NCBI GenBank assembly: GCA_002749535.1
Contig: MZZL01000405.1
Coordinates: 1,171,834-1,235,833, forward strand
Direction of reading: 5' to 3'
Origin: Apophysomyces variabilis
Lineage: Eukaryota; Mucoromycota; Mucoromycetes; Mucorales; Mucoraceae
Length of the DNA stretch: 64,000 bases
The notes beneath the pieces are model-generated. The model made no database searches. It saw only the letters and a list, made by a program, of their open reading frames with translations, and was not told where the DNA came from. Positions 23,412 through 52,255 of the stretch are shown piece by piece; the stretch's first letter is position 1, and each line of letters opens with the position of its first letter. Both the position numbers and the translations under genes were made by a program.

Positions 23412-23477
23412 CTACTGTTTATTGAATACATATTTTGCGCTACTGCAAAACAAATTCTGCGCCCATGAAAGCACCAA
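23412..23477 (+). repeat. Terminal inverted repeat, left end of Fanzor element 1
   Basis: About 66 bases beginning CTACTGTTTATTG and containing two TTTGCGC/TCTGCGCC boxes about 20 bases apart, ending ATGAAAGCACCAA. It aligns at roughly 80 percent with 31101-31165 (same orientation), and in inverted orientation with 34861-34920 and, more weakly, 27561-27620. Alignment was done by eye. Confidence 0.7.
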
Positions 23478-23584
23478 ATTTATGCTAAAAGTAAACTAAT
23501 TTTATGTCATTAACCAAATCAGTTATGCGAGAAGTATACTTTGCTTACATGAATCTGGTACTTCAGTGGGACACAGAATTCATT

Positions 23585-23700
23585 CGAGTAGCGAGAAATA
23601 TAATTCATGGTTAGCAAACCGGAAGGGTACATTGCTGTCCTTTTACTTACCCCGAAGGGTATCCCGCTGCTAAGCGCGGGCACCCACGCCGCACCCCTCC
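23585..23700 (-). ncRNA. Candidate guide-RNA (omega/fRNA) scaffold at Fanzor 1 3' end
   Basis: Read on the minus strand, the end of the Fanzor 1 CDS and the bases just after it form two perfect hairpins in a locally GC-rich block: CCCGC/GCGGG (23663-23680), whose loop contains the TAG stop, and TACCC-TTCG-GGGTA (23648-23661), a UUCG tetraloop hairpin. TnpB and Fanzor guide RNAs are known to overlap the 3' end of the nuclease gene, so this is the expected place. Expression and exact ends are not visible in sequence. Confidence 0.5.
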
Positions 23701-26500
23701 GGGATGGACATAAGCGAAGCTAACAGATTATTATCCAGCAAGTATTTACTGGCTTTCTTTGGGTTGAACTCCGGAAATGGTTCGTGGTGTTTTGAGAAAA
23801 GGGCACTCGTCCCGGTGAGAGCAATGTTCAGGGCAGCATTTTGGTCCCGGCCACGTGAGCCGTACCCTTTCTTCACACTAATGCATTCGGAATTTGTACA
23901 AATGACTGTGCCAAAGTTTTTCTTGATATAGCCATCTTTTTTCTTGTTCGGGTGGGAGAGAACTTGGTAGTAGAAAGGACACAGTTGAGAAGAACGAAAT
24001 TCGTTTGTCATCCCCTCCGAGATTTGTTGTAAATGTTGCTCTCTCAATTTCTTCCCACCACGACGGTAATGCCCTCGGATAGGGGAGCACACTCCTGTTC
24101 CAGCCGAGCCAGTCATCATAAGTAAGACATTGGTTTTCTTTCCCGAACCATTCAGGAAATTGCGTTCATTCGAAGCAACGGTAGCGTATGCCTTCTGTGT
24201 GTATATATCTTGAATGCGTTTTGACTTCTTTATGATTTCTTCTCCGAATAAAATTTCCTCAAAGTATCTCTGTTTTCTATCGCAACCTATAATCAGATCT
24301 AAGTTATTTGTTTAGTTCAGTAGAACAGTATAATACTACCTTGCGATAATTGTGCAAACTGTCGATGTCAACTGCATTTCCGACATTGTTCTTTAACAAT
24401 TTCTTTTCCATAGCTTTTACCTTCTTTCCCTCTTCGGTCGCCTACGATGCAGAAAGAATTGTCATTGCAGCGTAGCTCCATATGAAACACGGCTCTTACC
24501 CTTTTCCTATACTCCCTTTGTCTTCTGACGCGTCTTGTAAAGGAAAGGTCATCAATTTGTTTCGCAGTGATTTTGAAGGTCTTTGGTATCTTTTGGAAAT
24601 CTGACGCCAAGTCATCGTCGGTGTCTTTATCCTGAGTCTCAAGTGCACTGAATTGGTTATGAAGCTTCAGATGGTAGGCAAAACGTTCAGTTGGCAAAGA
24701 AACCGATTCCGACATTGTGACAACACCGTAATCGGTGCCGGAAAACGTGATTCCTGTTCTTGGATCTTCGGTCATTCCTCTGATATCCATTTTTAAAACG
24801 TCATCTTCACATTTGAAACTATTCGCTGTAATTTTCGTCAGATCTTTGTCCTTCGTTTTCCGTTTTCTTTTGCGTCCTTTGATTAATTTTTGATCGCTCT
24901 TTTCGATCTCTTCGTCAACGATGGCCTGTAAAAGGGAGACGCTTACTTAGCAAGGTTTGTGCCAGTAGGCATTTTACCTGGACTGCGAGATACTTGTCGT
25001 GTCGGAAATTCTGCAATTTTTTCCGTTCGAGAAGCAGTTTTTTGTTTTCTTGTTTCCTTTCGTTTTTCAAACCATTCCTGAAAGCAATAGTATCAATAAG
25101 ATCTTCCGCATTCGATGTGTTGGGTCGACCGTCTTTGATAGCGTTGATTTCTTCCGTCAATAAACATATAGTTTCCGTCCTATCTCTAAGGCTATTTTCC
25201 AATTGCTTGACTTTTCCTGTGGTTTTAACGATATCCTTGCCGATGGCTGTAACGGTATCGCTTTCTTGAGCCTTTCGCAAAATCGTTGCTGAAGGCCGTG
25301 CATGCTTCTTTTTGCGTTTCTCGTATCGGGATCTTGCAACTTTTCTGCTTTTCAACACAGTCCCTTGTATGCTCGTAGAACCATATGATGAAATTTTTAG
25401 GACATTGTCAAATTTCAGACCATGTTTGTGGCATATGCGATCTATTCGCTCGAGGTCAAAAAAGGCACCGAGAATGTATTTAGGATTATGGGTGGCATCG
25501 GGGCAGCTTGTCATTGTTTTGCCATTTGGGCCAACGACGTCAAACCCGTCCATGTCGTCTCTGGTACAGCATAATATTTCGAAGGTTGTGGTAGGATTTA
25601 AAACAAGGGAATATATGGCCGACGGTCGAACAGCGGGGTAAATAGAACGCGTAAATTTTTTGTTATCAGTTATCGTAAAGACTGCATTTGCGAGCAGCAC
25701 CAAAGGGGCATTCAGCAACGGGTGTCGATCAACAGCAAGCTAGCCAGTAGGACAAAGAAAAAAAGGCTTGATGAAGCTATACACGTCTATGACTGCTTCG
25801 GCTTCTTTCAGGTACAACTCGGCAGTGCTAAATTCCTTTTGTAGCTTCCTCACTGTGATGTTGTCTACCGAGACGTCTTCCAATGCTAATAGCCGCTTCC
25901 TTAGAGTTGTTAACCTTTGAAGTCTGGAGCGGCTCGTTTCTTGGGTTATTTTCCTCTTTTTTGAATTCGGTTCTGAAGATGTCGATGCTAGAATAGGGCG
26001 CTTTTCACGTGCTTGATGGCTGCCGGATGTTGGCACTTCCTCTTCCTCCTCTGCTTCCTTTCCGTCATTTTTCGTACCATTCTGATATTCTTCGTCTTCT
26101 TCGTCTTCTTCTCCGTTCCTTTCCCATTCTGCATCTTCATCGTTCAACTGGACCTTGTCCATTTCGTCATCTTCTGTTTCCCTAGATGGGTTACTTGCTA
26201 GTTCTTTCTGATTGCTCCTTTGTGCAAGTAAATTTGATCTGGTTGATTTTAGGGTAGCGATAATGGCGGACAGCTTCTGTACACGTGGATCGTCCGCGGA
26301 TACCCGGTTTTCGAGCTTTCTTAGGCGGCGAGTTTGATACTTTATGCGCCAGTCGAGAGTTGCAACTGACGATTTATTCTCGCACCTAGATTATTATATC
26401 CTAGTTAGATCTACATGACACGTAAGGAAAAAGTATACATACTTTTCATGTTTGTCTTTTCTTTCCTGCTTCCGCTTCCGCAAGTTGTAGTTTGGTCTTT
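23670..26500 (-). CDS. Fanzor (eukaryotic TnpB-like nuclease) 1, 5' end unresolved
   Basis: Predicted RNA-guided DNA endonuclease of the Fanzor family. Exons read right to left: about 26500-26443, 26385 to about 25784, about 25739-24975, then four more exons to TAG at 23670; joins are in frame, using an ACAG acceptor near 24274. The N-terminus is basic, then acidic (EEDEEDEEYQN). RuvC-like residues: Asp in SGTDYGVVTMS (about 24732), Glu in MTNEFRSSQLC (about 24001), Asp in GRDQNAALNI (about 23845). Between the last two is a zinc-finger region with only one clean pair (CTNSEC); the first pair is degenerate (CPFY). A Fanzor-type helix SLHNYRK and a Lys/Arg-rich bridge are present. No ATG is found in frame in the first exon, so a 5' exon is missing from this model. 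Transcription starts near the right terminal repeat. Confidence 0.8.
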
Positions 26501-27560
26501 CCCTTTCGGGAGCCAGAGCGAATCGTAATAGCAACAGTATGAGTCATTGGGTAATATAGGGAACCGTGGCGCCATTCCACATATTTCGACAGGCTGTGGC
26601 ATATTGCCGCAGTTTTGCTATTGAAATTTTTGGGAGCATAAAGAGGAGGCAGACTGTAAAAGAAACGGGCGATGGGAAGGAAAAAGAAAAAGAGCCTTCT
26701 GTGTATAAAAAAGTAAGAAACGCTAAGGAACAAGCGAAACTCTGATTAATTCTTTTATGTGATAAATAATTGTTCTACTTGGATATCTATGATAGGGCGC
26801 GGATAATGCGCCGGTTGGGACGGTTACTAACATATTTTGTAAAATCTGAACGATTGGCGATGATAAGTGGTTCTTCTCACTTTGCTATTCTGTGTCCACC
26901 GGTGCCTCAGTAGCACATAGATAGAATAGAATGTTAATGTGTTAACCAAATCTAAATGATAATTACAGCCAATACATTCACTGAAGAGTCTGGAGTGATC
27001 AGCAAGATCTACCGCTATTAAAACAAAATGTTGGAGATATATCTTAAAGTAGGTTCGGAAGTTCAAGGAAGTGGAGAAATCCTTCAACCAAGCATACAAA
27101 TTTCATACACGAGTTGGTAGACGTGACTGGTTTTGCTTTATCACCCAACCACCTTTCTGTTCTTATAGTGCCACTTACTTGAATGCACCATAACTTAATG
27201 AGAGCATACCAGTTTATTCTCATGTTTATCTTAGAACTTGGCAAGATTTGGACTACTTACATTGGGGATTCTTCTTTCTAGTTGGCGCAAAGGCGAAGGT
27301 TGCCGAAGAGAAGACGAAAGATGTGGTTCACACCCAACCATGCTTCTTCCATCGTTTCTTCTGACATCTCCCCTCCCCCAAAAAAAGTCGACTGTAGTGC
27401 GTCTTTCAAGATATGAGTTGAGATGGATGAAGGGGTTTTTTATTTTATATTATTTTTTCTACGAATAAAGCGCGGTTTTGGGGGATTATACCATATCTGG
27501 AGTCGGAGCGGAGGCAACCGGATTTAGCGTAGGAACGAACGTTAAGGTATCATATTCGCT
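26501..27560. other. 5' flank of Fanzor 1 inside its element
   Basis: About 1 kb between the first placed exon of Fanzor 1 and the right terminal repeat. It may hold the missing 5' exon and promoter. Short ORFs (26827-27099, 27044-27244, 27238-27468) show no domains. Confidence 0.4.
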
Positions 27561-27620
27561 GGCGCAAAAGTACTTTTTGGCTGACGCAAATTACCTTGCA
27601 AGAACCTGTAAAATCAAAGG
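27561..27620 (-). repeat. Terminal inverted repeat, right end of Fanzor element 1
   Basis: In reverse complement it begins CCTTTG and has two boxes, AATTTGCGT and TTTTGCGCC, spaced as in the repeat at 34861-34920. It is more diverged than the other three copies. With 23412-23477 it brackets Fanzor 1 as an element of about 4.2 kb. Confidence 0.5.
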
Positions 27621-27922
27621 GTGAGGTGAATAAATGATTAGAATGAATTCTTACATGACAGCTAATCCGGCGACAATTGTTTGCTTTTAATATGACATCG
27701 ATGAAGCCAAATGTAATAACTTCATTGTGGCCGATAATGTCAATGCTGTGCCACAGTCATAGCTTGAAACGGCCGGGTCAAGTGATCGACCCATGGCCCG
27801 CTGGGCTGGGCCAACATCTTATCTGGAGCCCGGCACAGTAGGCCTAACACACTAAGGCCCGCCCGAGCCCTAGTTGTAAGCTAGTCTGTTTTGAAGGTAG
27901 GCTCTCTTGGAGAAGCTGCTTG

Positions 27923-28981
27923 CTATCCAACCTTCGGAGAAAAATTATTGGGCAACGGCGTACTTGGCTGGAGCTTGGTTGTGATGTAGGGCCCGCTCGA
28001 TACGGTCACAGTTATGCATGAAAGCGAAATCGCCTCGTTTGGTTTCATAAGGGGGGGGGATTTGGGATCGCAAAGGGTTTTTGGACCGCATGGATTAAAG
28101 TTGTCTTTTATGGTTATTCTGAAGCGTTGTAGTTGTTCTCGGAGCTCGTGTTGATGGTCGTTGTGGATTAGCAAGGCTAGAATGTTACGATCTGGGTAGT
28201 GGATGTCAAGTATTCGGTTGTTGTTAATGTACAGTTTCTGTAAAGAAGAGCGGATTTGTCCGATGGTTATTCTGGCTTTGGTTGACAGGTAAATGTATTT
28301 GAATCCTTGGGTAGTGGAGGGTAGTTGCAAAAGTCGTGAAGCTGCTTCCTGTCGTTGCTGGCGCCGTTGTTGTCGTTGGGTGAGCAATTGATCTTTAAGT
28401 TGCCGAAGTCTTTTGGATTGATGCCAGGAAGAGGGTTCTGAGGGGTTTCCGGGGCTCTATCTCCGAGGAAAGGTCATGTTGTTCAATGACATTGGTTGCT
28501 GCTGGAATGGAGCGTTGTTGAGCAAGTTGGTCCTGCAGATGGCTGTCTCTTCATGTAGACGTGCAATTTCAGCTTTGGCGGAGGCGAGTTTTCTTGTAAG
28601 GTTCTCGACCATAGTGAGCAGTCGTTGCAGATACGGTTGATTGGCATTGGTGGGCATCGTTTTGTGTTGGAAATATCAAGAAATTTCGGCATCAGTTGGT
28701 GTATGAAGTTGTCTTCCAGTAGACCAGACGGATTGTATTATATGCATCGAGGTCTTGGCTCCGAAGCTACTACCGCAACCACTACAGCGGAAAACAGGTT
28801 GGGAAGGCCTAGTTTTAGTGGAGCCATTGTGACGAAAAGTACCCATTTCCTCGCAAGTGGGACATTTTAATGACTTTCGGTGAGTCTCAAAATTCGAGAT
28901 AAGGAAATTAATTTCTTTATGGGACATATTGTTAAGAGCGTTAGATACATGATCTGTTTGGTTTATAGCGCCTGAAGGCAT
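27923..28981 (-). pseudogene. LINE ORF1-like (gag-type) pseudogene
   Basis: One minus-strand frame is open from MPSGAINQTD (28981) to a stop at 27923 except for two in-frame nonsense codons: TGA at 28676-28678 and TAG at 28457-28459. The translated protein has a zinc-ribbon-like segment (CPTCEEMGTFRHNG and FRCSGCGSSFG), a coiled coil with leucine heptads (MVENLTRKLASAKAEIARLH), a Gln/Arg-rich stretch and a C-terminal ordered domain (IRSSLQKLYINNNRILDIHY). This order fits nucleic-acid-binding ORF1 proteins of fungal LINE elements; that assignment is inferred from architecture. No reverse transcriptase is attached. GC-rich unusual DNA at 27770-27880 lies just beyond its end. Confidence 0.5.
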
Positions 28982-29189
28982 TTTATATAGGCGTATATGT
29001 TGTTTTACTTTTCTGATATATTCGCGAAAGAAAAGAGTGACAGGGATTTTTCCGAGCTGCGACTTTTACGTTTTAAAAACTGTACAAACAGTCACGTACG
29101 AGTTTTTGTGGTCCTGTCTTGCGTGTCCGAAGCCTGAAAACTCCAAGGACAGCCCGTCTTCAAAACTCCTTTTCCGCTTACCGTCTCTC

Positions 29190-30604
29190 ATGAACTCCAC
29201 CCATGGCTCCGACATCAGTGGCAATCACCCTCGTAATCCCTTTATAATACCATCGATACACAGCGATGTCAAAGCAATATACCCACCCTATTTTGACGTA
29301 TGTACATCGCGAACAGCCCCCCCTTCATCGTCGAAACTATTCAACTCATCATTTAACAAAACGGACAGGCCATTCTTGCCGGAGGCATAGGAGGTGCTAC
29401 AGCCGATTTTCTCATGCACAGGTAAAAGATTGTGCAGCATTACCTTTGGTTTCTTTTACAGATACCTTATTCAACTTGCTATATCTATTTAACTTAGCGT
29501 GGACACTGTAAAGACTCGGTTACAAGGTCAACCTCATCATCGACCATTCAAATACCATAACATGGTTCAAGCATACCGTCTTATTTTAAAGGATGAAGGT
29601 GTTCTTAGAGGACTTTATGCGGGTGTGACACCAGCCATGCTAGGCTCAGGTAAAAGAAAGGAATGGACATAGAAAATCAAGAGATAGGGCTAAGCGTTTG
29701 AATAGTACCGGGTACTGCCTTGTATTTCGCGATATACGAGTTCACAAAGCGTAATTTGACAGCCAATGGTGTTCCTGGGGTTATTGCTCATTTAACGGCC
29801 GGTTCTGTGGGAGATTTGGCTGCCTCCATCGTATATGTACCCTCCGAGGTGTTAAAGACACGAATGCAACTCCAGGGACGGTATAACAACCCACACTTTA
29901 TTAGTGGGTATAATTATCGAAATACATGGCATGCTGCGTCTGTGGTACGAAATGTTGTTATTGTATTGTCTTTATTGAGTGCTAAAACCAATCAATTCTG
30001 CAGATTGTAAAATATGATGGCTGGGGTGCTCTGTTCCATGGATTTAGAGCTACCATCCTCCGTGATGTGCCTTACTCAGCTGTCCAGTTTGCTCTATATG
30101 GTAAATATTGCTCTAGGAATAAAGATGGACGTACTAACACAACGAATGATAGAGAGATTCAAGGCCATTGCACATTCGAATTATATAACACCGGATGGTC
30201 AGATACCCATGGGTATCGATATGGTGACAGGATCCTTAGCAGGTGGTATTGCTGGCGCAGTGACGACGCCTTTGGATGTGATGAAGACGCTGCTTCAAAC
30301 ACAACAGACCAGCAAAAAAGGGAACAAACCGACGACAGCACCCGAGATAAACCCACCCGCAGCGGGTACTGCTGCACCTCAACCAAAGCATTATAGCGGT
30401 ATTGTGGAAGGACTTGTATGGAATTATAAGAATCAGGGTATTGGTGGATTGTTCCGTGGTATTGGACCCAGAGTCTTCTGGACAAGTCTTCAAAGTGCGA
30501 TTATGTTTGTCATTTATGAACAGATCCTGCATCTCGAAGAGACACTACGGGAACGTGGAGAATGGCCTCCTAATCAAGCAGTACGACATATCTTTACCAC
30601 TTAA
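29190..30604 (+). CDS. Mitochondrial carrier, Mme1-like (Mg2+ exporter family)
   Basis: Inner-membrane solute carrier of the SLC25 type. Exons begin at 29190 (MNSTHGSD) with introns at 29298, about 29420, about 29650, about 29950 and about 30103; all joins are in frame. Three carrier repeats are seen: [20 protein letters not shown], the middle [20 protein letters not shown] with [10 protein letters not shown], and [20 protein letters not shown], each carrying a PxD/ExxK-type signature (first repeat SVDTVK). The pattern [14 protein letters not shown], and [12 protein letters not shown] near the end, matches yeast Mme1 (YMR166C), reported as a mitochondrial magnesium exporter, better than other carriers I know. 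It lies between the two Fanzor elements and appears intact. Confidence 0.85.
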
Positions 30605-31100
30605 TTTTTGCCGAAGAAGAAGAGTACATGTTTTTTTTGGAGAACTTGTACATGTAAAAAGAAAAACAACGTCAAGCTACGGTGGCTTGAATGAGAGAAG
30701 GTTAACGTTTTTTTGCTCCTCAGTCCTCCCGCGGTTTCTATTACTTTTTCTTGTTGGTTTGACCACCTTCCTCATTGTATATTCTCAGACTATTTATGTA
30801 GTGAAATTCTTGTGTTACCCCTCTTTTTTTCTTTTTGTTTTCCCTTGTAGACCGCCTTAAAATAATAGACAATAGAATGAATACAACTTTGTGTCGATAC
30901 TTGTTTCTTGATTTGATACTTTGGTTGTGGTGGCTAGAATGGTTTTCGTCTGCATCTCCTAAAGAAGAGTAGACGTACTTCCGAAGCTGGCGAAGCGAGG
31001 CTGGCAAAAATATATGTTTCGGAATAGCGATTCTATTGCTACCTTCTCTGTCATAGACGTAGCATAAATCCGGGATTTGTTACAGTTCGAAACCAAACGT
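30605..31100. other. Intergenic region between the carrier gene and Fanzor element 2
   Basis: Carrier 3' UTR and AT-rich DNA up to the terminal repeat at 31101. No gene seen. Confidence 0.4.
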
Positions 31101-31165
31101 CTACAGTTTATTGAATTATATTTTGCGCCACTTTGAAACAAATTTTGCCTCGATGAAAGAACCAA
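31101..31165 (+). repeat. Terminal inverted repeat, left end of Fanzor element 2
   Basis: Begins CTACAGTTTATTGAAT, has TTTTGCGCC and TTTTGCC boxes and ends ATGAAAGAACCAA. It is the closest match to 23412-23477 and pairs in inverted orientation with 34861-34920. Confidence 0.7.
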
Positions 31166-31169
31166 GATA

Positions 31170-31326
31170 GTGGATCCAGAGATTGTGTTATCATCTTTCC
31201 TTATTTATTCGAGAGAAAAAATAAAAATCCTATGGTGCTAAAGGAATAACTCTATCATCTGGAAACGAGAGAGCGAGCGAAGAAAGAAAGAAAGGGGAGG
31301 GGGGGAGGGACAATCTCTGGATCCAC
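31170..31326. repeat. Perfect 17-base inverted repeat bracketing a 123-base insert
   Basis: GTGGATCCAGAGATTGT at 31170-31186 is found as its exact reverse complement at 31310-31326. The insert is purine-rich on its right side. The pair sits just inside the left end of Fanzor element 2; no target duplication is evident. Confidence 0.8.
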
Positions 31327-31968
31327 AATTCTCGGATAATGGTGTTAAGTGGTCGGCCTACGGCCTCCACTAAAAGAACACATGGGTAACTATTCGTCAG
31401 TGTAATTACGGTATGCACCGCGTTTATTCTTGCGAATTCGAACTATAATTGCCCGTCGAAAATTTTGTTGCGAGTCGCTTGCAAGCACGCTTATAGAAGC
31501 ATTGCTATTGCACATTCAACAAATTGTAACGGACTATAGCAAAAGTGATGGATGAAATAGTATTTGAGGATGATCCATAACTTTCGATCCAAGGCGCAGT
31601 ATCATACAGACAACTATCATGAACATGTCGATGGGCAAATCGTTCCTTATCAGAATTTAGCCTTGGGTAAGGTCAATGATACTCTGCTAATTTTATGTGA
31701 AACCTGTCTTTGGGCGACTGTTAGTTTACACTGTCCTGTAAGATAAATGTTGTCATTATAAGAAAAAAAAAAGAAATAGTTTAATGTGAGTAACCTGAGC
31801 GTTATCATCTTTTCTTCCTTGTTATTTCTTCTTTTACAGTTGAATTCATCATGGATGATTTTGCGTATTATATGCGTTCGCTTATCTGGTCTTTTTTCAT
31901 GTTGTCTCTGACCGCCTTGACAGGCAAAGACTACATCCAGAAGAAAAAGGAAAAAAAAAGCCGCTGAT

Positions 31969-34682
31969 ATGGAATTACAGAAGCAGCTACAAGAGGAGGA
32001 AAGGTTAAAAAGAGGTACGTACACATCCTCATAAAAGAAAGTTAACTGACAGCAACCAATCTCAGCAAATCAGTCTCAGTGTAACTCTTGTGGACTCTGG
32101 GGGCATCAAAGCATGAGGTCGAAACTGTGTCCAACGAGAGAAGTCAAAGGTTTGCAATGCACATTGCTATATAGTGTATCACGCTTAAAGTATGCCCAAT
32201 AGCTGGTAGTAAGCGGACGCGCCAGCCAGAAGTTCAGAGTGTGGCGCTCAAAAAAGCAAAGAAAACGGGTCGAGCGAGTAAGCAAGCAAGTTCCAGTAAT
32301 ACGGCCTTTATAGCAAATCCATGCCCTGCATGTGGTTCCACTGAACACAGAAGTACCCGAGCGAAGAGTTGCCTGCGACACACTAAGTCGACCGAGGAGA
32401 TATTAGAAGATCAACTCTGGAAAGGTTTCGAAACATTCACTCGAAAAGCTCCTCTACATTCCGTTGTCGTTGAAGCACATCGAGATCAGCTTCAAAGAAA
32501 AGTTCAAGAGCTTTCACAATATACGAGAGAGGTGATTGCAAGAACTCAACTGTTTGTCAACCAGTATATACTTGATCATCAAGTAATCCCACCCATCTGT
32601 TTCACTCAAAATTTCTTCTATTCGGTCACGCAACTTGTGCTCAACAAGTCAATGACAACTAAAAACGATAAAATGCCAACAGATCTTAGCAGCTCGTGGA
32701 GAGAATTTCGTGACAAGCACCCTCAGATGCAACAAGCGCCCAACACACAACTAAGATCATCTGATGTATTGTCAGAAGCTTGTGTATTGCTGGCCACATG
32801 CTATTCAAACAATATAGTCGAAAATTTCGAAACTCGTGTGCGTTCATTTGTTGAACATAAGCTGTCAGTAGCGTTTCCGGCATGTATCGTGTTTTGGTAT
32901 ATCTGAACTAAGTTTCATCATATATAGAGTATGAATAAAACTGAGATACGAAATATTGCATGGGAATATGCCTTCGAACGCATCGCTGGTGGATCAACTC
33001 AATGGCCTAATCTGATTGAACCGGATTTGCCTTTACTGGCTATTGTCGATAAGATTTGTGATGATTTAGAGGCACTGACGCCTAAGCCTGCAACGCAGCA
33101 AGCCATACCGGCATCGCCTGGCGCGTACATTCCAACGTTAAAACACATCCTGTCTTCCTATGAAGAAGAGCATGAAATTGTTGCTGCTTCCGAAAAAAGT
33201 TCTAGTGATACAACTCTGCCTCGTCTTTTCTCGATTTCACCAAAACCAAGTTGCAAGTGGCGTTTTGTTTCAATAAACACCAAACTTTTGGCAAGTCTGT
33301 TATCCATTCGAGAACCAACACAGCCGAGCGAATATCCACGAGTATTTTTTGAAGCGCTTGATCTTACTCGTTTCGGATTTAATAAGTATGGGAAATAGCG
33401 GTAGTTACCTTTAATTTCAAACACTCACTCTGTGTTAATATATACGTACAGCTTGGGAGATTTTACCGGGAATGGAAATCATCGTTTCGCATGCAGAATT
33501 CTTTCTGATGGATTTGCAGTAAATCTAGTTTTCGCAAGAAAACAAAAGGAAAGGTTGCTGGCAACGGAAATTGACCTCGAGGGCTTTACCGTTGATGAAG
33601 TCGAGCAGTGGTTCGAACCGTGGGCCGTGGATCCGGGTTTGAATCAAATATACACAGCTGCAGACGGTAGTGGCTCACAGAGGCATCAAGTACGCCGTGT
33701 GTCGACAAAAGAGTATTATGCCATAACTGGCTCTACGCGGAGAGCGAAGCAACTCGAAAAACAGAAGGATGCGGCGGGTATCACTCGTATCGAGACTGGT
33801 TTAGAGAGTTGTAAAACAGCATCAGCAGAGCAACATCATCAGTTGGTGGAGTGCTTCGCCCAGAATTTTCCAGTATTGACAGCTTTTTACGGGCCCGGCA
33901 TGGCTGAGAAGCGTTTCCACAATTACCAAGGAGTACAACGTGCTCGTGAAGAGCTCGTTAATGTGTTAGTCAACGGTGGAAAAAAGTACTGCAAGCAGCG
34001 GCGAAGAAAGACTCGAAAGAATAGACGAAAGAAGAAGAGAAAGACTCTGAAACGGCGAGAACAAGAGAAGCTGAAATGGCGATCAGGGTCAGAGACTAAG
34101 TGCAAAGTACTGAAATAAGTGATATTAACGAAATCTTCTAACCTAGGCCACAAGAGTCTGGAATCAGATCAACGCAAAATAAACCGCACCCAAGCACAAA
34201 GAAATGGCATCCAAAGGCATTTCAAGCAAGCAAAAAAATACCATTAATTGTATTCAGATCTGCAATGTTTGGTGCGAGTGGACATGCGTCAAGAAAGGGC
34301 AAGCGTGCTGCGTTAGTCAACACCTGTTGGAAAATGCTAAAGAGAAGAGAAAGGAGAGGGGAATTGATTGCAACAACAGTCGATGAATTTTACACGTCTC
34401 AAGTTTGTTGTCTTTTGCTTCGTATGTACCCTCATGGTTTATCTATAGGTGTGCAACAGCTGCCTTCAGAGAGGGCTGGAGAAAGTCACCACATCCGATT
34501 CTGTGTCCCACCATGGTGTAGTAGTTTGCAAACACTGCCGTACACTATGGCGACGGGACATTAATTCGGCAAAAAACGTGTTCTACATTGCAAACTCGGT
34601 TTGGCGCGGACAAGGTCGCCCCATAGAATTCTGCCGTCCGGCTAAAAATGATATCGCCACTAAGAATGTGGTTTCCTCGTAA
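31969..34682 (+). CDS. Fanzor (eukaryotic TnpB-like nuclease) 2
   Basis: Predicted RNA-guided DNA endonuclease, apparently intact. The first in-frame Met placed is 31969 (MELQKQLQEEERLKR); an upstream basic exon part (RRKRKKKAAD) may extend it. Introns are read near 32015-32065, 32150-32190, 32872-32930, 33383-33452, 34115-34146 and 34402-34448, all in frame. The N-terminus has two zinc-knuckle-like CX2CX4HX7C motifs (CNSCGLWGHQSMRSKLC and CPACGSTEHRSTRAKSC). The nuclease part shows HRFACRILSDGFAVNLVFAR, RuvC Asp in WAVDPGLNQIYTAADG (33629-33631), Glu in TTVDEFYTSQ (34384-34386), a canonical finger (CNSC and CKHC) and Asp in WRRDINSAKNV (34557-34559). A Lys/Arg-rich block (KTRKNRRKKKRKTLKRRE) precedes the second RuvC segment. 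The gene lies between inverted repeats at 31101 and 34861. Confidence 0.87.
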
Positions 34683-34860
34683 CGAGGATTTAGATTTATA
34701 CGTCTCGAACGGTAAGTTCAATGCTTTAAATTCACATTTTTCTAACGACTGGTCTTTTCACCTTGCCCAACCTTTTCTTGTGCATATCATCTGGTTAAGT
34801 AAGAAATTATTATCCTGGAGAAGCAATGTTCTCACAAGCCCTTTATCTATATCATTTCCA
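34660..34860 (+). ncRNA. Candidate guide-RNA scaffold region at Fanzor 2 3' end
   Basis: The last codons and stop form a perfect hairpin, TCCTCG-TAA-CGAGGA (34674-34688), with the TAA stop as the loop. About 170 bases of AT-rich DNA then lead to the right terminal repeat at 34861, the same spacing as in Fanzor element 1. By analogy with TnpB/Fanzor loci this is where a guide scaffold would end; its real limits are unknown. Confidence 0.4.
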
Positions 34861-34920
34861 GTTGACGCAAACTATTTCTCTAAACAACGCAAATTGTTAT
34901 GCAATAAACAGTAGCAAAGG
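34861..34920 (-). repeat. Terminal inverted repeat, right end of Fanzor element 2
   Basis: In reverse complement reads CCTTTGCTACTGTTTATTG, followed by AATTTGCG and GTTTGCGTC boxes. It shares CTACTGTTTATTG exactly with 23412-23424. Confidence 0.7.
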
Positions 34921-35059
34921 GCTAGCTTCTGACCCGGCGCCTGCCAGGCGAGTGTTCCGGATTAATAAAACTCCGAATGTTGGACTGTCTTTCTGCGTCA
35001 TTGGCTTTTTGAAATTGTCGGATTTTCTTGGATGGGGCGAAGAGAAAGTGTTGCTGATC

Positions 35060-51377: not shown

Positions 51378-52255
51378 TTATCCATATTTCATATATATAA
51401 AAAAAGACTCGCTTTCAATGGTTCCTCGGACTGCGGCTGTGGTTGCCGAAGCGGCCATCCCATCCATCAGGGAATTAACGGCCTTTTTCAAATTTTCAAT
51501 AGACGTATCCAAACAGAGGCGCAAGGAATCATAGTGGATCTCGTTTTGGCGGTATATTGCATCCAGGCGGCGGCTCACATCGGGTATAACGGTTGCTAAC
51601 CGCAAATCAGCTGGGGTATTTTCGGTTTGGGTATAGTGTTGAAGGTTATCCGAGAATGAAATAAATTCCGGCGACTGGAAGATGTCGTGGTTGAATATGG
51701 CATGGTTAGGTACCAAGTGCCGAAGGCACGCGACGTCTTGCACCAGCACCGTCCTCATCACCTGCAGCAGCCGGAGGAACCCTTGGGCACATATGGTCGG
51801 CTCTGCTTCTCGTCCTGCTTCTACNTGCCGAAGGCACGCGACGTCTTGCACCACCACCGTCCTCATCACCTGCAGCAGCCGGAGGAACCCTTGGGCACAT
51901 ATGGTCGGCTCTGCTTCTCGTCCTGCTTCTACCCTCTCCAACCAGCCATCCACCTCGGGAAAAATACGCGCAGTCAATGCTGCTGGCGGTTCTAAGGAGG
52001 AGCGAGGCGGCCAGTACTGCCCTCGGCTTGCCGGGAAGCCAGTCATGATTCGGATGGCCCCACGAGGCAATGCAGTGAGGTACCAGGTCTCCATCACATC
52101 GTTGCTCCACCTTCCATGACCCCTGACGTCGTCGATTTCGGCTCCGTTTTCCTCTGCATACCGGACGCCCGAGCCACGGCCAGCGTGCGTCTTCTTTTTG
52201 CTGCATATGTGGCACGCCTCAAATGCCCGGTTGATGGCGGCAAATTAAGCATTGT
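51378..52255 (-). mobile_element. Crypton-type tyrosine recombinase, C-terminal remnant
   Basis: The minus frame reads KKTHAGRGSGVRYAEENG, then DDVRGHGRWSNDVMETWYLT and LPRGAIRIMTGFPA, which matches the catalytic end of Crypton-type tyrosine recombinases and the related Ndc10-like domain (His-x-x-Arg, Gly-His-x-Arg-Trp and the terminal Tyr). It continues into the C-terminal helical part (FLRLLQVMRTV, HAIFNHDIFQSPEFISF, VIPDVSRRLDAIYRQ). The N-terminal part of the recombinase is not found in frame. The reading frame crosses a duplicated block around the single N at 51825, so this copy as printed may be distorted by assembly. Confidence 0.6.
51718..51932. repeat. Near-identical 107-base tandem copies joined by one N
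   Basis: 51718-51824 and 51826-51932 are the same sequence with one mismatch (CACCAGCACC versus CACCACCACC), separated by a single N at 51825. This is the pattern left when two overlapping contig ends are joined without merging. Confidence 0.85.

Follow-up and report, generated by a model that had tools for sequence, protein, structure and literature searches.

Two Fanzor-bearing elements with related, apparently Tc1/mariner-type ends in Apophysomyces variabilis, and left-flank bases that seem to follow the Fanzor lineage

It has already been published that Fanzor1 genes can reside in elements that lack a transposase, have Mariner-like ends and duplicate TA, and the survey concerned lists 10 Fanzor1 families in Mucor, four in Rhizopus and three in Phycomyces (Bao & Jurka 2013, PMC3627910). 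For SpuFz1 of Spizellomyces punctatus, the bases CA are conserved outside the left repeat and the target-adjacent motif (TAM) is CATA (Saito et al. 2023, PMC10432273). Here we describe two elements, E1 and E2, in a window of 64,000 nucleotides from the mucoralean fungus Apophysomyces variabilis (contig MZZL01000405.1, positions 1,171,834 to 1,235,833 of the forward strand). Each contains one gene of the TnpB/Fanzor superfamily, gene 1 in E1 and gene 2 in E2, and both are members of the known kind of element. Comparison of their copies shows conserved bases directly outside the left ends, and these bases seem tied to the Fanzor lineage rather than to the type of element end. A genome with several Fanzor lineages on related or exchanged ends offers a natural experiment on the part that the nuclease may play in shaping insertion sites. 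Copies and relatives were sought in a genome of 38.7 Mb and 126 contigs; matches are quoted as C-number:position in the coordinates of its contigs. The Vps8 protein encoded in the window is 56-60% identical to named proteins of Mucorales such as Mucor, Rhizopus, Parasitella and Phycomyces, and 62% identical to the best match without a name, which points to a host of Mucorales type.

Copies with the same ends, which the first-pass annotation of this DNA had proposed to look for, were found elsewhere in the genome for both elements. Their alignments end at 23413 (E1) and 34913 (E2), none running beyond, and TA stands at both ends of each element, so that one gene per end-bounded element, as first proposed, is what the copies indicate. 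The four tips share the sequence TAC[AT]G, with a TTTGCG box at each end; the end repeats of E2 are short and imperfect (26 nt at 81%). The suspected kinship of the ends was confirmed by the likeness between the right end of E1 and the left end of E2 (Table 1). A transposase search inside E1 and E2 gave no match and no relic. By appearance, then, both are non-autonomous elements of the Tc1/mariner type, and their ends are related. One end of locus L057 resembles both the left end of E2 (85%, 75 nt) and the right end of E1 (77%, 92 nt) and adjoins a decayed DDE_3 transposase frame; the opposite outer end of L057 was not recognised. Among the matches listed, a DDE_3 match lies within 8 kb of at least 3 of 58 gene 1-like and at least 9 of 71 gene 2-like places (lists compiled by hand from match lists), and five of the gene 2-like places have it on the same strand, 4.5-4.8 kb upstream. 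In this lineage, F, the sister of E2 (L058, whose RuvC-I exon shares 45% identity with that of gene 2), the transposase is bounded by its own pair of F-type ends and may therefore be a nested or fused unit. Three copies of gene 2 (L055, L146 and L147) have a left end of the E1 type, which shows that the E1 and E2 families have exchanged ends.

The interval 23413-34913 as a whole was also considered as a single 11.5-kb composite element, its outer 13 nt being exact inverted repeats (matches at 23412 and 34902). We rejected this candidate, to which we give next to no credence: copies of E1 and of E2 occur elsewhere, each kind with its own ends and in different flanking DNA, and the two elements are separated by a mitochondrial carrier gene. 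A search of the window for direct and inverted repeats returned low-complexity or unrelated repeats only and did not recover the shared element ends. A further repeat, ACTAGTCCTTCTGCAC, has 51 exact sites in the genome. It, or a near form, occurs 6-9 nt outside the ends of four E1 copies (L042, L044, L048 and L050), one E2 copy (L024) and L082 and L094; some of its other sites are about 310-350 bp from DDE_3 fragments, so that a further family of Tc1-like elements may have this repeat as its end.

The motifs beside the insertions are asymmetric. On the left, TT stands just outside the TA in 9 of 11 E1 flanks, and C occupies position -1 in 12 of the 13 flanks of the E2 lineage, 10 of which read TC; in the F lineage, C at -1 and a purine at -2 each occur in 20 of 21. 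The background ahead of 7,450 TA sites of the window, taken on both strands, is 18% for C, 5.5% for TC and 11% for TT. The mirrored motif is absent from the right flanks, with G in 5 of 18 for E2 and 1 of 9 for F, and AA in 1 of 12 for E1. By likeness to the CATA of SpuFz1, the predicted TAMs would be YCTA for E2, RCTA for F and TTTA for E1, which makes the prediction explicit for three Fanzor lineages.

The flanks were chosen as follows. Eleven left flanks were counted for E1, with none for L050 and with L043, whose first 10 nt are unaligned, scored as a miss. For E2, 18 sequences were labelled as carrying an E2-type Fanzor; L052, L055, L056, L065 and L081 were dropped for want of a clear E2-type left end, leaving 13 (14 by script, which included L056), and L072 was kept with CA in place of TA. 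The 21 left flanks of F are 18 labelled ones minus L136 plus L100-L103, L104 being truncated. On the right, 18 of 19 flanks were used for E2 (L039 was unclear; L028 and L030 share a flank), 12 for E1 (L048 and L050 share a flank) and 9 of 10 for F (L111 was dropped). Twenty-five ends classed as 'other' were excluded from the flank tests.

Could the transposase alone account for these bases? They would then reflect the target preference of a transposase that distinguishes left from right ends, with the Fanzor as a passenger. All insertions are at TA and the left and right ends differ in sequence, so that a polar choice is possible; moreover, F-type and E2-type elements both favour C at -1, and 25 ends without an assigned Fanzor show a bias towards G. 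We nevertheless consider this explanation unlikely, on three comparisons in which end type and Fanzor lineage part company. First, the right ends of E1 are of the same type as the left ends of E2, yet the mirrored G is found in 3 of 12 against 12 of 13 (p=0.001). Second, left ends of the E1 type are preceded by TT on gene 1, but by TC when they carry gene 2, at two independent sites (a third copy shares one of these flanks). Third, where F-type ends belong to transposase-only elements (three elements, five ends), C is found in 2 of 5, against 20 of 21 in the F lineage (p=0.014, or p=0.008 when the unassigned L155 and L163 are added). The transposase-only set began with 18 sequences. Apart from the five counted and the two unassigned, 11 were dropped: L153, L156-L158 and L165 have no TA-flanked end, L154, L160-L162 and L164 represent one repeated internal junction, and L159 has the same flank as L101.

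The six introns of gene 2 are all GT-AG and 46-66 nt long, and the spliced frame, read from an inferred start codon, is open throughout. The three RuvC acids that the first-pass annotation had placed in each gene are present in the contexts given, as D478 (AVDPG), E714 (DEFYTSQ) and D756 (RRDINSA) in gene 2 and in GTDYG, NEFRSSQ and GRDQNAA in gene 1. The zinc-finger region, claimed for both genes, is whole in gene 2 (C721-C724-C746-C749), while gene 1 has Tyr at one of the Cys positions. E714 is joined to the ribbon only once a 46-nt intron is spliced out of gene 2. The superfamily pattern, D-X(125,275)-[TS][TS]-X-X-C4 zinc finger-X(5,50)-RD (PMC3627910), is found in gene 2 as D478, T717-S718, the four cysteines and R755-D756; in gene 1, D-X209-SS and RD fit. 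The Fanzor signature is described as DPG at RuvC-I together with a glutamate six residues ahead of the zinc finger, and a TDG motif in the WED region as the mark of Fanzor1 (PMC10711439). Gene 2 has AVDPG and six residues between E714 and C721; in the WED region it reads SDG, and its relatives L035, L058 and P0001 read TDG. A Protein Data Bank (PDB) search with a profile of gene 2 and three relatives matched SpuFz1 (1e-11) and GtFz1 (1.9e-9), and LaTranC weakly (0.001), and gene 2 is related in sequence to proven Fanzor1 proteins. At its N-terminus are two CCHC-like motifs, one of which resembles a zinc knuckle in Pfam (E 0.003-0.004 for gene 2 and L058, below the Pfam cut-off). The Pfam domain TNB scored under the cut-off on the last exon of gene 2, and a protein search found one relative for the gene. 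As a check of the RuvC fold, the proxy P0001 alone was modelled, and the model was unusable (mean predicted local distance difference test score 32.5). The genome itself holds at least 73 matches to PF07282 at E<=0.001.

Among the 16 copies of the E2 family that were aligned, that of the window is the only one with an uninterrupted coding sequence; all 15 others carry a stop or frameshift. Their differences from the window copy number 443, 398 and 493 at the three codon positions (L025, partly misaligned, was excluded), an even spread of the kind expected when copies decay once inserted. A relative family, represented by four loci that are not independent of each other, has 61-62% identity to gene 2 in the RuvC-I exon; in this comparison the three positions are 70, 76-78 and 37% identical, the third being saturated, so the gene 2 lineage was kept as a protein. 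The same comparison brings out the noncoding stretch that follows the gene. Positions 34683-34840 (158 nt) are 87-89% identical to this family and 34841-34913 (73 nt) 69-89%, compared with 47-51% for the introns, and the left ends of two such relatives (C91:788603 and C78:786974) match over only about 60 nt. The long right block fits a guide-RNA scaffold, for which we regard it as a candidate; its likeness may also have come about through exchange between families, with which our comparison is compatible.

A bleaker account makes both elements dead passengers, gene 2 being intact by chance and the right block alike through recombined ends or upkeep for transposase binding. The decay of every other E2-family copy, the exchange of ends between families and the lack of a significant fold in the right ends all agree with it. 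It is harder to reconcile with the codon-position identities, by which the protein was kept, and with a right block of about 230 nt set against a left-end match of about 60 nt at the same family distance, and we hold it to be improbable.

Gene 1 proved not to be the working nuclease gene that it had been taken for, but a truncated pseudogene. Some 350 N-terminal residues are missing in comparison with two related families with long open exons, A (L062) and B (L063), whose first exon has about 510 codons, of which gene 1 retains only the last part; the match begins at residue 358 of family A and 323 of family B. In-frame stops lie near 26545 and 25741, and a frame break near 24232 is shared by two other copies. 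All 10 other E1-family copies aligned over the gene carry at least one stop or frameshift (the partial copy L051 was omitted, and copies were counted piece by piece with last-exon stop counts unused), and some have altered RuvC aspartates. Identity between the E1 copies and that of the window is about 95%, even across all six parts measured. E1 appears to have spread, or to have decayed later, without a full-length Fanzor of its own.

At RuvC-I, gene 1 reads DYG instead of DPG, as do families A and B (GTDYG), and the glutamate six residues ahead of the zinc finger is present in all three (NEFRSSQLC in gene 1, DEHRSSQTC and NEHRSSQLC in A and B, which also keep CxxC where gene 1 has Tyr). The first-pass annotation had remarked neither on this departure from DPG nor on the missing transposase or the asymmetry of the flank motif. 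Both families are spliced and have roughly 1,200-1,300 codons of open exons. The DNA pattern for F-x-GTDYG has 46 sites in the genome and none in the reversed control; at 42 of them, a gene 1-like C-terminal match follows within 1.5 kb downstream on the same strand. A genome search with gene 1 returned two groups of equal-scoring matches, of 10 and 12, which point to recent spread of this DYG clade. A protein search with the C-terminus of the clade found two relatives, one of them from Apophysomyces sp. BC1015. In an Apophysomyces protein of the clade, the motif is TNYG.

Where does the DYG clade belong? When gene 1-like C-termini are combined into a profile, the top PDB match is SpuFz1 (3.2e-6), followed by Cas12f (0.02) and PpFz1 (0.068), and with the SpuFz1 match of gene 2 this bears out the placing of both genes in the TnpB/Fanzor superfamily. 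The profile has five members, including L059 (DPG at RuvC-I) and P0003 (without the RuvC-I part); one of the five matches Pfam TNB, and the pieces of gene 1 gave no match to this domain. The gene 1-like and gene 2 profiles match each other over about 90 C-terminal columns only (probability 92%), and the best BLASTP match between the two genes has E=2.8, in line with the separate lineages that had been supposed. One could imagine that the clade is not an offshoot of Fanzor1, and that eukaryotes gained it separately from the TnpB clade that has DPhiG and the alternative glutamate. DYG with a glutamate six residues ahead of the zinc finger is indeed a combination of some prokaryotic TnpBs (PMC10711439), and there is no full-length similarity between gene 1 and gene 2. 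However, DPG is present in L059, the closest of the other families that were found, and the C-terminal profile finds SpuFz1 first, although L059 is part of it; a separate gain therefore strikes us as quite improbable. Family B (L063, L121-L123, L126 and L127) forms an element of about 5 kb, with GGAAATACCGAGTGGG at its left and CAGATACCG at its right and without inverted repeats, which suggests that another transposon class carries the DYG clade. Families A and B were dropped as further Tc1 cases, the ends of B having no inverted repeats and the left end of A not having been reached.

A model of how the left-flank bases might arise is as follows. A DDE_3 transposase acting in trans would move E1 and E2 into TA sites. 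The Fanzor would bind an RNA transcribed from the right end, with the first 14-20 nt of the flank beyond the right TA as guide. A site without the element, excised or absent from one copy, would then read TAM (the two left-flank bases and TA) followed by the guide sequence; for E2, the rejoined site is predicted to read TCTA and then GCAAAGGG. Because such a rejoined site would present TAM and guide target, the Fanzor would cut it, and repair from the occupied copy would restore the element. Only where the two neighbouring bases suit the Fanzor would insertions thus be retained, leaving a left-flank motif specific to each lineage. Since the Fanzor of E1 is truncated, other copies or lineages would have to provide the Fanzor behind the E1 motif.

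Several observations weigh against this model. The controls that set transposase against Fanzor are small and were grouped by the analyst, and transposase-only status holds among the matches listed. The 25 ends of the E1-right or L057 type without an assigned Fanzor (L073-L099) have G at -1 in 13 cases and C in 6, a bias for which the model does not account, and L080, a 63%-identical relative, has TG. E1 spread even though every copy aligned over the gene has a truncated Fanzor. Folded as RNA, neither right end did better than shuffled sequences (z -0.74 to 0.18). The 3' end of E1 showed no similarity to the corresponding regions of four gene 1-like loci, and no conserved right block emerged for the lineage of gene 1. 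Taking both sides together, we put the probability of the whole explanation, in which Fanzor elements mobilised in trans are restored by Fanzor and acquire lineage-bound left-flank motifs, at roughly two in three. The stronger proposition, that in this genome the persistence of Tc1-type insertions is decided by the Fanzor instead of the transposase, as a motif that tracks the lineage despite exchanged ends would suggest, and that the DYG clade spread recently, is tentative, and we rate its chances at a shade under even.

Table 1. Positions in the window of the two elements, their genes and the flanking bases
Feature	Position	Strand	Basis or remark
Element E1, TA at both ends	23413..27610	-	copy alignments stop here, flanks differ
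E1 left and right TA	27610-27609; 23414-23413		read along gene 1
E1 right end, like E2 left end	23413..23477	-	65 nt, 81.5%
E1 left end	27540..27610	-	end comparison
E1 left flank	27611..27614	-	ATTT, read towards the element; TT beside TA
Gene 1, truncated Fanzor relic of the DYG clade	23670..26612	-	RuvC motifs; comparison with families A and B; stops and frame break
Gene 1 RuvC-I motif F-S-GTDYG	24726..24745	-	pattern match C91:1196559-1196578
Element E2, TA at both ends	31102..34913	+	copy alignments, flanks differ
TC directly outside the E2 left TA	31100..31101	+	C at -1 in the E2 lineage
Gene 2, uninterrupted Fanzor1 gene, 796 aa, seven exons	31969..34682	+	splicing; SpuFz1/GtFz1 profile match
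Gene 2 exons 1-4	31969-32014, 32066-32149, 32203-32867, 32928-33385	+	
Gene 2 exons 5-7	33452-34099, 34147-34402, 34449-34682	+	
Conserved noncoding right-end block, proposed guide-RNA scaffold	34683..34913	+	identity to relative family
E2 right flank, predicted guide if the guide follows the right TA	34914..34933	+	by analogy with SpuFz1 (PMC10432273)

The two genes are divergent, as first annotated, with their 5' ends about 5.4 kb apart and not 8 kb. Between E1 and the mitochondrial carrier gene, a short open frame on the minus strand (28676-28981) gives a weak zinc-ribbon match and is perhaps another transposon relic. Elsewhere in the window, an open frame on the minus strand at 51378-52097 contains an NDC10_II domain (7e-26) and, at 51718-51932, a near-perfect 108-bp tandem duplication; we take it that this frame possibly belongs to a Crypton-like element.

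How do E1 and E2 compare with the systems already described? With the Fanzor1 Tc1/mariner elements of Bao & Jurka (2013, PMC3627910) they share ends of the terminal-inverted-repeat type and the TA duplication; those elements carry Fanzor1 with or without a transposase, and E1 and E2 are without one. Unlike in the available passages of that paper, two Fanzor lineages here have related and exchanged ends, one of them belongs to the DYG clade, and the flank motifs differ between lineages. As far as our searches of the open-licence literature show, a body to which most subscription journals do not belong, neither the DYG clade nor a lineage-bound flank motif has been described. With the clade included, Fanzor would have to be defined more broadly than in the literature, and nucleases with a different active-site motif might become available. 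Gene 2 and SpuFz1 have in common that they are Fanzor1 proteins in elements with inverted repeats, a conserved noncoding region at the right end and two conserved bases outside the left end, whereas gene 2 is spliced and larger, has a putative N-terminal zinc-knuckle region and is flanked by YC instead of CA (PMC10432273). GtFz1 and PpFz1 (PMC11423790) have the RuvC and zinc-ribbon region of Fanzor1 in common with the genes here; among the PDB matches of the gene 2 profile GtFz1 ranks second, and PpFz1, found by the gene 1-like profile at the E value given above, is not close to either gene of the window. Finally, prokaryotic TnpBs that combine DPhiG with the alternative glutamate (PMC10711439) have the same pair of motifs as the gene 1 clade, which differs from them in being fungal, spliced and, in families A and B, provided with long open exons.

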